From: Streptomyces sp. LHD-70
Lineage (GTDB): Bacteria > Actinomycetota > Actinomycetes > Streptomycetales > Streptomycetaceae
Direction: 5' to 3'
DNA length: 64,000 bases
NCBI RefSeq assembly: GCF_031157275.1
Contig: NZ_JAVIFW010000001.1
Location: forward strand, 124,001-188,000
Positions 20,874 to 31,839 of this stretch are shown one piece after another. The first letter of the stretch is position 1. Each line of letters starts with the position of its first letter. The notes under the pieces are model-generated. The model saw only the letters and a program-made list of their open reading frames with translations. It did not search any database and was not told the DNA's origin. A program made the translations under genes and the position numbers.

Positions 20874-20946
<73 letters not shown>

Positions 20947-20956
20947 CAGTCACCAG

Positions 20957-25462: not shown

Positions 25463-25535
<73 letters not shown>

Positions 25536-25545
25536 CAGAAGTTGG

Positions 25546-27221: not shown

Positions 27222-28541
27222 TCAAGGACAGCCTCCTGTGGAGCCGGATGCGCTCCAGGGCTCACCGGACGTGGGCTGCCCGTAGAGCCTGTGCTGTTGC
27301 GCGGGGACGTGAGGGGAAGGGCGGGCGCTGTCGGGTTCCTCGCTCCCCGCAAAGGGGCGAGGCGTGACCGTCGGCGTCTCACCGGAGTCGTACGGGTCGT
27401 ACGCGCGCGGTGTGTACGCGGGCGGCTCCTGGCCCGTGTACACCGGCTCCTGGCCCGTGTGCGGGGCGCGCGTCGGCCGGGGTGGCAGTGGGGCGGGCTG
27501 GTGGGCGTAGGGCGCGGACAGGGCGCGGTAGGCGGCCGTCATGTCGGTCCTTGCCGCCGGTCCGACGGACGGCCAGGGTGGGGCTTCGCCGAGCGGGGGA
27601 GCGGGCGGCGCGTAGCGGTGTTCGGGGGCGGGCGCATCGAAGCGGTGCTCCTGCCCGTAGGGAGCGAAATCGTGCTCCTGTCCGCGCGGTGGCGTGTGCG
27701 GTGCCCAGTCGGGTCGGGTGGGGATGTCGGTGGCCGTCTGCGGCGTGGTCGAGGTGGGCTCCATTCCGGGCAGTGGGGTCTGCCTGCGGGGCGGCTGCCG
27801 GTGGGCGGATCGGCGGCCGCGCGGTGCCTGATCGAGCAGTTCCAGGAGGCGGCGGGCCACCTGGCGCTTGATCGGCGGTGGTGCGGAGCGCAGGGCCAGG
27901 GCACCGCCGACGGCGACCAGGCACAGGCAGTACAGGGCGACGACCCAGCCACTGGGCTCTCGGCCCGCGTACAGGCCGTGCACCAGCGCCGCGCACCAGG
28001 CCGGGTAGGCCAGGGTGTGCAGCGCGCGCCAGCGGCCGGCGACCCGGGCGGGGGAGGCGAAGGCGCTGCGCAGGGCGCCCGTGACGCCGGTGACCACCAT
28101 GAGCAGCCCGGCCAGGGCGCCCAGGCCGATCAGCACGCCCGTGCCGCTCGGGCCGAGCGAGAACGGCACCAGAGCGCCGACGAGCGACACGTGGTCGAGG
28201 ACCACCTTCACCGTGCCGTGCAGCAGCAGGAAGCCGATAGCGGCGATCGCCGTGGCCCGGTGCACTGCCTGGGCGAGCAGTCTGTGGCGGGTGCTGAGGA
28301 AGATCCGGTCGGAGGCGACCAGGCCCCAGACGATCGAGCAGGTCAGGGCGACGAGGGCGAGCACCCCTGTGGTGAAGTCGAGGGCGCCCCGCAGCCCGTC
28401 GCCTCCGGTGAGGACGACGAGGGGGATCAGGAGGAGCAGCGCGGCGATCAGACCGCCGCGAGCGGTGCGGCTCAACTCCGGTGCGGGACCGGAGCGTTGA
28501 TGTGGATCTCGAACGTGCACGGAAGTTTGTGGAGGGTTCAT
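27222..28541 (-). CDS. Ferric-reductase-like/b-type heme transmembrane protein
   Basis: A 439-residue membrane protein. About six helices lie in the first 230 residues, including GGLIAALLLLIPLVVLTGG and a histidine-bearing pair: HRATAIAAIGFLLLHGTVKV and WRALHTLAYPAWCAALVHGL. These histidines suit b-type heme binding, as in ferric-reductase-like domains. The last 200 residues are Pro/Thr-rich and probably disordered. The stop (27222-27224) sits only 44 bases before the NuoF-like TTG start, with a duplicated AGGAGG element between, so the two genes form one operon and probably one electron-transfer chain from NADH to the membrane. Heme and direction of flow are inferred, not shown. Confidence 0.8.
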   Translation of the reverse strand: MNPPQTSVHVRDPHQRSGPAPELSRTARGGLIAALLLLIPLVVLTGGDGLRGALDFTTGVLALVALTCSIVWGLVASDRIFLSTRHRLLAQAVHRATAIAAIGFLLLHGTVKVVLDHVSLVGALVPFSLGPSGTGVLIGLGALAGLLMVVTGVTGALRSAFASPARVAGRWRALHTLAYPAWCAALVHGLYAGREPSGWVVALYCLCLVAVGGALALRSAPPPIKRQVARRLLELLDQAPRGRRSAHRQPPRRQTPLPGMEPTSTTPQTATDIPTRPDWAPHTPPRGQEHDFAPYGQEHRFDAPAPEHRYAPPAPPLGEAPPWPSVGPAARTDMTAAYRALSAPYAHQPAPLPPRPTRAPHTGQEPVYTGQEPPAYTPRAYDPYDSGETPTVTPRPFAGSEEPDSARPSPHVPAQQHRLYGQPTSGEPWSASGSTGGCP

Positions 28542-28770
28542 GGGGTCACTCCGAATGGTTCGGCAAAGCGCGTCCCGGGCCGCATGCTAAGTGGCTCCAT
28601 ACCGGCCAGTAAGGGGTTTGAGTTATTGCGTTGTTATCCAGTGGCGATCGGTCTGTTGTGTTGCCCCGATAGGCGCCGGTACGCCGAGTAACCCTTGGGC
28701 TGAAACCCGGAAGGAAATCCGGAACTCGGGCGGTCCTGGAAGCTCGGTGCGACCCCCGTGGGCGCTGCGG

Positions 28771-28896
28771 TACCCTGACGCCATGCGTGCCGTACGCCTT
28801 CTGCTTAGCGAGCCGCGCTGATCAGTACCGACCACGGCCTTCCAGCGAAGGCGGTCGGAGTCAGCGCGGCGTCCCCTCCTGTGTGAGGGGATTTTT
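28771..28896 (+). promoter_or_regulatory. Candidate leucine attenuator of leuS
   Basis: -10 TACCCT (28771-28776) precedes a leader peptide. A 10-bp stem (GCCGCGCTGA, 28812-28821, with 28861-28870) overlaps the peptide's end and encloses an inner hairpin (CCGACC 28828-28833 with GGTCGG 28853-28858; GCCTT with AAGGC). A terminator hairpin follows at once: CCCCTC (28873-28878), GAGGGG (28885-28890), then five Ts. A ribosome stalled on the Leu codons would cover the first stem arm. A further hairpin, CGGCTG/CAGCCG, lies just before leuS. Confidence 0.75.
28783..28821 (+). CDS. Leader peptide MRAVRLLLSEPR upstream of leuS
   Basis: A 12-codon frame, ATG six bases after a -10 hexamer (leaderless layout), with three successive leucine codons CTT-CTG-CTT. 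CTT is rare in this GC-rich genome, which would make translation sensitive to charged tRNA-Leu supply. It ends inside the first arm of the attenuator stem. The peptide itself probably has no function once made. Confidence 0.7.
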   Translation: MRAVRLLLSEPR

Positions 28897-28959
28897 CATT
28901 TCGGCTGTACGTCGCAGCCGAAAACGCCGGCAGAGACGATCGATGGAGCCTTAAGGATC

Positions 28960-31839
28960 ATGAGCGAGACGAATTCTGCTGCCGAAGTGGCAGCACCGCA
29001 CCGCTACACGGCCACCCTGGCCGCGAACATCGAGGCACGCTGGCAGGACTTCTGGGACGAGAACGGCACCTATGAGGCGCCGAATCCGAGCGGAGACATG
29101 GCCGGTGACCCGTCGCTCGCCGGCCGGCCCAAGAAGTTCATCATGGACATGTTCCCGTACCCCTCCGGCGCGGGCCTGCACGTCGGCCACCCGCTGGGAT
29201 ACATCGCGACCGACGCCTTCGCGCGCTTCCAGCGCATGACCGGGCACAACGTCCTGCACACCCTGGGCTTCGACGCCTTCGGCCTGCCCGCCGAGCAGTA
29301 CGCCGTGCAGACGGGCACCCACCCCCGGGTCTCCACCGAGGCCAACATCGTCAACATGAAGGCGCAGCTGCGCCGCCTGGGCCTGGGCCACGACAAGCGC
29401 CGCTCCTTCGCGACGATCGACCCGGACTACTACAAGTGGACCCAGTGGATCTTCGTCCAGATCTTCAACTCCTGGTACGACAAGGACGCGAAGAAGGCCC
29501 GGCCGATCACTGAGCTGGTCGCCCAGTTCGAGAGCGGCGAGCGCCCTGTGCCCGCCGACGAAACCGGCACCACGCGCGCGTGGTCCGAGCTGAGCCCGGC
29601 CGACCGCGCCGAGGTCCTGGGCCACTACCGCCTGGCGTACGCCTCCGACGCCCCCGTCAACTGGTGCCCCGGCCTGGGCACCGTACTGGCGAACGAAGAG
29701 GTCACCGCCGACGGCCGCTCCGAGCGCGGCAACTTCCCGGTCTTCAAGTCCAAGCTGCGCCAGTGGAACATGCGCATCACCGCCTACGCGGACCGCCTGA
29801 TCGACGACCTGGACGGCGTGGACTGGCCCGAGGCGATCAAGCTGCAGCAGCGCAACTGGATCGGCCGCTCCGAGGGCGCCCGCGTCGACTTCCCGATCGA
29901 CGGCGAGCGCATCACGGTCTTCACGACCCGCCCGGACACCCTGTTCGGCGCCACTTACATGGTCCTGGCGCCCGAGCACCCGCTGGTCGAGAAGTTCACC
30001 CCGAACGCCTGGCCCGAGGGCACGCACGACGTCTGGACCGGCGGCCACGCGACGCCCGCCGAGGCCGTCGCCGCGTACCGCAAGCAGGCCGCGACCAAGT
30101 CCGACGTCGAGCGCCAGGCCGAGGCCAAGGACAAGACCGGCGTCTTCATCGGCGCGTACGCGACCAACCCGGTCAACGGCGAGCAGGTCCCGGTCTTCAT
30201 CGCCGACTACGTCCTGATGGGGTACGGCACCGGCGCGATCATGGCCGTCCCCGCGGGTGACCAGCGCGACTTCGAGTTCGCGCGGGCCTTCGAGCTGCCG
30301 ATCCACTGCATCGTCGAGCCGACCGACGGCCGCGGCACGGACACCTCCACCTGGGAGGACGCCTTCGGCTCGTACGACGCGAAGATCATCAACTCGTCGA
30401 ACGACGACATCTCCCTGGACGGCCTGGGCGTCGCCGAGGCCAAGGCGCGCATCACCGAGTGGATGGAGCGGCGGAGCGTCGGCGAGGGCACCGTCAACTT
30501 CCGGCTGCGTGACTGGCTGTTCAGCCGCCAGCGCTACTGGGGCGAGCCCTTCCCGATCGTCTACGACGAGGACGGCATCGCGCACTCGCTGCCCGAGTCG
30601 ATGCTGCCCCTGGAGCTGCCGGAGGTCGAGGACTACTCCCCGCGCACCTTCGACCCGGACGACGCGGACACCTCCCCGGAGACCCCGCTGTCGCGCAACG
30701 AGGACTGGGTCAACGTCCAGCTGGACCTGGGCGACGGCGTCAAGACGTACCGCCGCGAGACCAACACCATGCCCAACTGGGCCGGTTCTTGCTGGTACGA
30801 GCTGCGCTACCTGGACCCGCACAACGACGACAAGCTGGTCGACCCGGAAATCGAGCGCTATTGGATGGGCCCGCGTGAGGGCCAGCCGCACGGCGGCGTC
30901 GACCTGTACGTGGGCGGCCAGGAGCACGCCGTACTGCACCTGCTGTACGCGCGTTTCTGGTCCAAGGTGCTGTTCGACCTGGGCTGCATCGCGTCCTCCG
31001 AGCCGTTCCACAAGCTGTACAACCAGGGCATGATCCAGGCGTACGTCTACCGCGACAGCCGTGGCTTCCCGGTGCCGGCCGACGAGGTCGAGGAGCGCGA
31101 CGGCAAGTACTTCTTCGAGGGCGAGCCGGTCAAGCGCGAGCTGGGCAAGATGGGCAAGTCCCTGAAGAACGCGGTCACTCCGGACGAGATCTGCGCCGAG
31201 TACGGTGCGGACACCCTGCGCCTCTACGAGATGGCGATGGGCCCCCTGGACGTCTCCCGGCCGTGGGACACGCGCGCGGTGGTGGGCCAGTTCCGGCTGC
31301 TGCAGCGGCTGTGGCGCAACGTCGTCGACGAGGCGACCGGCGCGGTCACCGTGTCCGACGCCGAGCCCGACGAGGACACGCTGCGCGCCCTGCACAAGGC
31401 GATCGACGGCGTCCGCCAGGACCTGGACGGCATGCGGTTCAACACCGCCATCGCCAAGATCACCGAGCTGAACAACCACCTGACCAAGTCAGGTGGCCCG
31501 GTGCAGCGTTCGGTCGCCGAGCGTCTGGTGCTGCTGATCGCGCCGCTGGCCCCGCACATCGGCGAGGAGCTGTGGCGCAAGCTGGGCCACGACTCGTCGG
31601 TCGTCCACGAGGAGTTCCCGGTCGCCGACCCGGCGTACGTCGTCGACGAGGCCGTGACCTGCGTCGTGCAGATCAAGGGCAAGGTCAAGGCGCGCCTGGA
31701 GGTGTCCCCGTCGATCTCGGACGAGGAGCTGGAGAAGGCGGCCCTGGCCGACGAGAAGGTGGTGGCGGCGCTGGCCGGCGCGGGCATCCGCAAGGTGATC
31801 GTGCGGGCGCCGAAGCTGGTCAACATCGTTCCGGCCTGA
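28960..31839 (+). CDS. leuS: Leucyl-tRNA synthetase
   Basis: Class I synthetase that charges tRNA-Leu and edits mischarged products. The full-length 959-residue protein has the HIGH-type motif in [19 protein letters not shown] (about residues 65-83), the CP1 editing domain (about 250-430, with [20 protein letters not shown]) and the KMSKS-type motif as [15 protein letters not shown] near residue 730. The anticodon-binding and C-terminal domains are present. It lies behind a leucine-rich leader peptide and attenuator. Codon use is strongly biased, as for a highly expressed gene. Confidence 0.98.

Follow-up and report, generated by a model that had tools for sequence, protein, structure and literature searches.

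Attenuation upstream of leuS in Streptomyces has been described before. In 2005, Seliverstov et al. predicted that leuS of S. avermitilis and S. coelicolor is preceded by classical attenuators, comprising antiterminator and terminator hairpins (PMC1262725), and leuL2, which encodes the peptide MRAVRLLLSEPR, was annotated upstream of leuS in S. lividans TK24 in 2021 (PMC8079986). RNA-seq in the latter study indicates that leuL2 is leaderless, and the reading frame is followed by a hairpin and a uridine stretch (PMC8079986). Actinobacterial branched-chain leaders more generally carry leader peptides and terminators, yet how they regulate has been puzzling since 1999–2005 (PMC1262725).

We analysed a 64,000-nucleotide stretch of DNA from Streptomyces sp. 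LHD-70 (hereafter the window) that carries leuS and its leader. Because the 2005 prediction and the 2021 annotation precede this work, the attenuation reading given here is right but not new, and the Streptomyces leuS attenuator itself is already published. A survey by Lopatovskaya et al. from 2010 may cover more species. We offer as new only a class-wide comparison, the geometry of a conserved stem (P1) relative to the terminator, and a leucine codon pattern, for all of which no earlier report was found in the open-licence literature. No measurement of the response of leuS to leucine was found in the literature examined, and the words leuS and leader peptide are absent from the main texts of four Term-seq papers (PMC6742748, PMC8780764, PMC8914203 and PMC8269248).

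Layout of the leuS leader

An original prediction, made from the window sequence alone, placed a 12-codon, leucine-containing frame six bases after a TACCCT motif. Both elements were recovered to the base (TACCCT at 28771–28776, ATG at 28783), and the frame is MRAVRLLLSEPR, encoded by ATG CGT GCC GTA CGC CTT CTG CTT AGC GAG CCG CGC TGA. A perfect 10-bp stem, directly followed by a terminator hairpin and five Ts, had also been proposed. The stem is indeed formed by GCCGCGCTGA (28812–28821) with TCAGCGCGGC (28861–28870), and the adjoining hairpin occupies 28871–28892 with the Ts at 28892–28896. The features of the region are as follows.

28771–28776, + strand: -10 promoter element TACCCT, 6 nt 5' of the leader ATG, which implies a leaderless leader transcript
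28783–28821, + strand: leader ORF, MRAVRLLLSEPR-TGA (leuL2 in S. lividans)
28798–28806, + strand: putative regulatory codons CTT CTG CTT (Leu-Leu-Leu), codons 6–8 of the leader; the last codon is CTT in 158/168 and CTC in 10/168 loci
28807–28811, + strand: 5-nt spacer from the last Leu codon to P1, exactly 5 nt in 166/168 parsed loci
28812–28821, + strand: 5' arm of P1, GCCGCGCTGA, overlapping the end of the leader ORF
28828–28833, + strand: 5' arm of P2, CCGACC, an inner helix atop P1 in Streptomyces and relatives, with both-side changes in 4/6 pairs
28853–28858, + strand: 3' arm of P2, GGTCGG
28861–28870, + strand: 3' arm of P1, TCAGCGCGGC, abutting the terminator; gap of 0–2 nt in 164/168 loci, and in 155/168 without gap limit or penalty
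28871–28892, + strand: intrinsic terminator stem-loop, GTCCCCTC-CTGTGT-GAGGGGAT, with a terminator-like score and both-side changes in 5/7 pairs
28892–28896, + strand: terminator U tract
28960–31839, + strand: leuS, leucyl-tRNA synthetase, with 70 Leu codons (2 CTC, 0 CTT)

The terminator hairpin has 8 pairs, the two lowest of which are weak, and there is no gap to P1 if those two are counted. It was scored as terminator-like, and three such sites (overlapping or separate) are found in 801 bases, versus 0.4 in shuffled sequences. The leader stop codon is 138 nt from leuS, with the terminator in between. The description of CTT as a rare codon is borne out: it accounts for 47 of the 1479 Leu codons across 30 further putative ORFs of the window and for none of the 70 in leuS.

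An Rfam scan of positions 28000–29400, up to an E-value of 5, returned two matches, none relevant and neither a T-box; the absence of a T-box match in this interval speaks against a T-box riboswitch. When the terminator core was used as a genome-wide motif, 8 exact matches were found in the same genome, including this site. Five others were inspected, and these carry no U tract and appear coding-like by eye (L088 and L089 were outside this inspection). Elsewhere in the window is a pair of tRNA-Ala genes that share the anticodon GGC, both on the + strand (20874–20947 and 25463–25536).

A second hairpin just before leuS had been suggested as well. It exists as a 10-bp stem, TTTCGGCTG...CAGCCGAAA, at 28899–28923, 3' of the terminator, and a stem of at least 9 bp arises in this stretch in 24 of 2000 simple shuffles. 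However, this hairpin is not conserved among the streptomycete rows, because 65 of 68 have no stem over 8 bp. Directly 5' of leuS, at window positions 28930–28949, are a GCAGA[GT] box (57/68 streptomycete rows) and a GAYYGATGGAGC box (60/68). In 43/68 streptomycete rows the second box extends to ATGGAGCTTTGA, a three-codon frame M-E-L; this extension is absent in the window.

Distribution, geometry and covariation

Conservation of the peptide and its Leu codons had been named as a check on the original prediction. A Leu leader is present in 75 of 80 LeuS loci chosen by protein similarity alone. The carriers include Streptomyces, Streptantibioticus, Kitasatospora, Micromonospora, Plantactinospora and an Actinophytocola MAG (L071), the last having the leader but a different terminator, together with three records whose names go no further than Actinobacteria or Actinomycetes bacterium (L028, L044 and L057). 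The five leaderless loci belong to Rhodococcus (L075), Nocardia (L078) and the MAGs L077, L079 and L080.

A covariance model built from an alignment of 74 distinct rows (A1; the duplicate L029 was dropped) matches 32 of 396 phylum genomes at E <= 0.001, and 149 of 393 sampled class genomes, in 51 of 122 genera, at E <= 0.01. The element is widespread in the class and departs from the classical scheme. For further comparison, 106 loci outside the genus were taken, made up of 103 of the 106 class-sample sites (G490, G508 and G538 were left out) and 3 from another class. LeuS homology is present at 102 of these 106, and those that were parsed span 20 families. Conservation of the GCC/GGC and CTT elements must be considered partly ascertained, because most of the diverse loci came via a mostly-Streptomyces model.

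The four matches without LeuS homology (L121, L224, L227 and L228) were excluded from the parse. The minus strand of L121 carries, at about 1696–1792, the Leu-rich leader MRTVLLLLSGRDETSF; a stem resembling P1 is present, but by eye there is no U-tract terminator. The next protein is not LeuS and looks like LeuC. Furthermore, in three loci of family f100 (L280, L284 and L288), whose genomes have no model match among those listed, the Leu run of the leuS leader ends in CTC CTC CTC and a GC hairpin without a U tract is present; the share of CTC and CTT (CTY) in their leuS genes is 0.30–0.34.

At many leader-bearing loci, the best LeuS segment is only 34–42% identical to the window LeuS, so that the leader is associated with two LeuS types that differ considerably. 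Loci with divergent LeuS include L113, L114, L116, L117, L137, L140, L141 and L144. Two histories could account for this arrangement: a leader that is ancestral to both LeuS clades, or replacement of the gene behind a retained leader.

A parser that accepts a P1 starting 3–8 nt past a Leu codon and ending -3 to 8 nt before a terminator read 168 of 183 upstream regions, of which 76 are near and 92 diverse. The 15 unparsed regions comprise the five without the element (L075 and L077–L080) and ten model matches with LeuS (L118, L120, L183, L189, L192, L209, L217, L225, L226 and L229). Within the 3–8 nt that the parser accepts, the distance from the last Leu codon to P1 is 5 nt in 166/168 loci. 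The gap between P1 and the terminator is 0 in 82, 1 in 50, 2 in 32 and another value in 4 of the 168. When the terminator was chosen on its own score, with no gap limit or penalty, the gap is 0 in 78, 1 in 45, 2 in 32 and 3–5 nt in 5, and the helix is under 7 bp in 8. A TANNNT box, the mark of a leaderless transcript, is located 6 or 7 nt 5' of the leader start in 162/168, a count made without a shuffle control. The last Leu codon is CTT in all 76 near rows.

The leader stop codon is inside the P1 arm in 130 loci, after it in 23 and before it in 15. Because the stop codon wanders while P1 stays, P1 is kept as RNA and not just as peptide code. Assuming a ribosome footprint that extends to 12 nt beyond the A site, a ribosome at the stop codon covers the whole P1 5' arm in 168/168 loci. 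With the same footprint, a ribosome at the first Leu codon leaves this arm wholly free in 156/168 (76/76 near and 80/92 far loci) and partly covers it in 12/92 far loci.

The original prediction could also be weighed by compensatory changes in the stems, and these are present. In A1, P1 is 98.2% paired, and one of its pairs is changed on both sides, from C-G to U-A in 7 rows (Micromonosporaceae by eye); P2 in this alignment has both-side changes in 4/6 pairs. In a second alignment of 102 diverse rows (A2, all 92 parsed diverse loci plus 10 of the 76 near rows), 96.5% of P1 cells are paired and 6/10 pairs are changed on both sides, amounting to 89 such cells. The P1 covariation score in A2 is 0.289, versus 0.158 in shuffles, and none of 500 shuffles reaches it. 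Partners slid out of register pair in at most 57% of A2 cells. The covariation of P1, the leader in 75 of 80 loci and the CTT codon in all near rows place the element well outside what chance would produce. The terminator helix has both-side changes in 5/7 pairs in A2, although for two of these just a single cell shows such a change. Its two lowest pairs are frequently broken in A2, which is loosely aligned at that point. Of the three P1 pairs closest to the terminator, two are invariant in A2, to which the Streptomyces origin of the model may contribute.

Leucine codons and the proposed mechanism

Under standard decoding rules, both CTT and CTC are read by tRNA-Leu(GAG). In the leuS genes of 65 of the 67 named streptomycete-like loci (L001–L067; L046 and L058 were too short), CTN codons ending in C or T number 139 of 4860 (3%), whereas the Val, Ala, Thr, Gly, Arg, Ser and Pro boxes of the same genes are 39–90% Y-ending. 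The CTY share is at or below 0.05 in 53 of these 65 genes, and the highest value is 0.38 (L059). Elsewhere in the Streptomyces sp. LHD-70 genome, 17 of 28 EF-Tu Leu codons are Y-ending, the CTY share is 0.41 in valS and 0.51 in ileS (both from longest frames), and a partial ilvB has 15 CTC and 17 CTG codons. Low shares (0.00–0.01) are also found in six leuS genes of Micromonospora and one of Plantactinospora.

There are leader-bearing exceptions to CTY avoidance, namely the families f4, f5 and f110 (0.29–0.31), f2 (0.37) and f105 (0.33) and the loci L071 (0.31) and L282 (0.24). Thirteen loci classed as leaderless by eye have shares of 0.04–0.68, with L289 at 0.04. A comparison of ten leader-bearing families with window-like LeuS, three of them at 0.29–0.31, against nine leaderless loci or families yields a Mann-Whitney p of 0.008, a value uncorrected for phylogeny and drawn from mixed units. 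The codon pattern of leuS and its leader fits the theory of selective tRNA charging (PMC1183508), and the avoidance of CTY in leuS would constitute a natural test of it. A search of the open-licence literature listed no paper whose title concerns leuS codon avoidance of this kind.

The original prediction had interpreted the region as ribosome-mediated attenuation. This interpretation is supported, two published studies concur with it (PMC1262725 and PMC8079986), and it is the best reading of the leuS leader. Two hallmarks of an attenuator are present, namely a leader with codons for the relevant amino acid, whose translation is putative, and an intrinsic terminator between leader and leuS. 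A third, a helix that depends on ribosome position, is represented by P1 through geometry only and under the assumed footprint. The leader, P1 and the terminator, together with their geometry, conservation and covariation, the codon pattern, and the lack of a strand-sharing antiterminator at a first-Leu stall (see below), are evident from the sequence; regulation by leucine, isoacceptor specificity and a steric step are inferences.

We give about an even chance to a specific form of this reading, wherein the leuS attenuator reads the charging of tRNA-Leu, chiefly of the CTT/CTC isoacceptor, and P1 formed behind a stalled ribosome sterically obstructs the abutting terminator. Transcription would start at the leader AUG, and the leaderless leader would be translated at once. 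With charged Leu-tRNA available, the ribosome would reach the stop codon and cover the whole P1 5' arm, such that P1 could not form. Without P1, the terminator hairpin would close and most transcripts would end at about 28894–28898. If Leu-tRNA is scarce, the ribosome would wait at the Leu codons, far enough upstream to leave P1 free. P1 would then form with its 3' arm 0–2 nt from the terminator and obstruct the last terminator pairs.

When a terminator stem closes, its base lies far inside the RNA exit channel. At leuS, this base would need single-stranded RNA upstream of it in the channel, which a flush GC-rich helix would deny, and polymerase would then read through into leuS. The putRNA provides a precedent for RNA at the exit channel that hinders terminator folding (PMC9378689). 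Apart from P1, no conserved helix differs according to whether the ribosome has stalled or finished. Since leuS expression should go up under a shortage of Leu-tRNA, P1 is expected to act against the terminator. P1 shares no base with the terminator, and so its position is the simplest remaining way of opposing it. If this is correct, a terminator hairpin can be under the control of a helix with which it has no base pair in common, and searches for competing folds would miss such cases.

The same layout is found in ilvB leaders across the class (L230, from the same genome, and L233–L249). The ilvB leader of the same genome (MRTRILVLGKRVG) and 16 of 20 sampled ilvB regions parse as a run of branched-chain amino acid codons, a spacer of 2–7 nt, P1 and a terminator, whereas the ilvB parser reads 1 of 210 dinucleotide shuffles. 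In 15 of these 17, P1 directly abuts the terminator or overlaps it by one base (gap 0 or -1), and the gap is 5 in the other two. The ilvB leader of this genome exhibits little sequestration of the terminator 5' arm at an Ile stall (0.06). Replacement of the LVVI codons in the M. tuberculosis ilvB1 leader abolished induction, and its authors describe mutually exclusive folds (PMC13236596). Codon mutations in the S. coelicolor ilvB leader were reportedly without effect (Craster 1999, as cited in PMC1262725). We tentatively suggest, with rather less than even confidence, an actinobacterial form of attenuation common to leuS and ilvB, in which there is no shared base and the terminator is blocked by abutting RNA in the exit channel; leuS would be tuned to tRNA-Leu(GAG), whose codons are dominant in the leader and purged from leuS. 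A covarying hairpin that sits at a fixed distance from the Leu codons and directly abuts the terminator, at leuS as in many ilvB leaders, would offer one concrete explanation of the branched-chain leader puzzle.

Alternative explanations and known systems

A classical attenuator would employ an antiterminator that uses the 5' arm of the terminator, and the original prediction had remarked that none was evident. We folded transcripts truncated shortly after the terminator 5' arm, masking the part under the ribosome, and used trp leaders as controls. Sequestration of the arm is 0.62 at a Trp stall and 0.00 at the stop codon for E. coli trp, and 0.87 and 0.45, respectively, for the trpE leader of the same genome as the window. 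This test, which detects both trp antiterminators, yields a mean sequestration of 0.00–0.01 at the first-Leu stall of the leuS leaders, with 0 of 168 loci above 0.5; the earlier remark thus holds at this stall in all 168 parsed loci. At the last-Leu stall, sequestration is 11–21% (8/168 above 0.5). With the ribosome at the stop codon it is 29–36% (29/168 above 0.5, with the window at 0.50), which has the wrong sign for termination there. Because none of the 168 loci sequesters more than half of the arm at the first-Leu stall, the antiterminator that the classical model requires under starvation is not seen. Folds of the whole leader at equilibrium leave the terminator stable in nearly all ribosome states, but they are uninformative on this point because E. 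coli trp behaves likewise.

It is nevertheless conceivable, albeit quite unlikely, that a strand-sharing antiterminator exists and is missed by the energy models; the 'antiterminator' meant in the 2005 paper, whose authors name the leuS attenuator classical, with antiterminator and terminator hairpins (PMC1262725), may itself be P1. There are weak conserved alternatives as well; for example, the P1 3' arm could form all pairs with the terminator loop in 63 of 74 rows. However, that pairing is broken in the Micromonosporaceae rows (A1, by eye), and for the P1 3' arm to be available, the ribosome would have to sit at the stop codon and cover the 5' arm, which is again the wrong sign.

We regard as unlikely that P1 is mainly a pause hairpin, like the trp 1:2 or his pause hairpins, which would synchronise the two machines by holding polymerase about 11–12 nt downstream until arrival of the ribosome, while readthrough comes from something else. 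The consensus pause site is U-3 G-2 Y-1 G+1, and a TG[CT]G motif that resembles it is found in the terminator hairpin of 75/76 near loci, 12 nt past P1 in the window. This motif is kept in only 52/92 diverse loci, however, and a pause by itself would not make a switch. P1 may act in pausing as well as in the steric step. It is very unlikely that the terminator is a constitutive brake with fixed readthrough and that the Leu leader is non-regulatory or acts via reinitiation at leuS. Regulation of leuS by leucine was not found in the literature examined, and ribosome reinitiation at leaders has been proposed in general terms (PMC4833913), but the Leu codons, their constant 5-nt spacing from P1 and the -10 box beside the start codon are retained as the stop codon shifts position. 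The 138 nt from this stop codon to leuS, with the terminator between them, also argue against this reading. Control that is translational or Rho-dependent, exerted for instance through the GAYYGATGGAGC box that is conserved before leuS in 60/68 streptomycete rows, seems highly improbable, given that the intrinsic terminator with its U tract is conserved and covarying and that the box is absent in Micromonospora loci (by eye).

The proposed steric obstruction of the terminator by P1 in a ribosome-mediated attenuator can be compared with known systems. The leuS attenuator of Seliverstov et al. is alike in gene, genus, leader ORF and terminator, and is almost certainly the same element (PMC1262725). 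That paper treats it in two species and calls it classical with an antiterminator, whereas here the element is traced across the class and has no strand-sharing antiterminator at the first-Leu stall. S. lividans leuL2 has the identical peptide, is leaderless and precedes a hairpin and a U run in front of leuS (PMC8079986); in the available text it is an annotation only, without P1-terminator geometry or cross-species comparison. The M. tuberculosis ilvB1 leader is likewise an actinobacterial branched-chain leader with an intrinsic terminator, and related ilvB leaders are flush as at leuS. However, it serves a different gene, its own sequence is outside the parsed ilvB set, and its authors describe mutually exclusive folds (PMC13236596).

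The nascent RNA hairpins of HK022 putRNA oppose formation of a terminator hairpin at the RNA exit channel, as proposed for P1, but putRNA binds polymerase and acts far downstream, whereas P1 would act once and flush with the terminator (PMC9378689). Attenuators of the trp type (E. coli trp and the trpE leader of this genome) have leader codons, ribosome position, hairpins and an intrinsic terminator in common with leuS, but their antiterminator shares a strand with the terminator, which is not so at leuS. Finally, the LEU element of leuA is a pseudoknot in which the leader codons pair with the Shine-Dalgarno region of the gene, whereas the leader described here precedes leuS and is followed by an intrinsic terminator.
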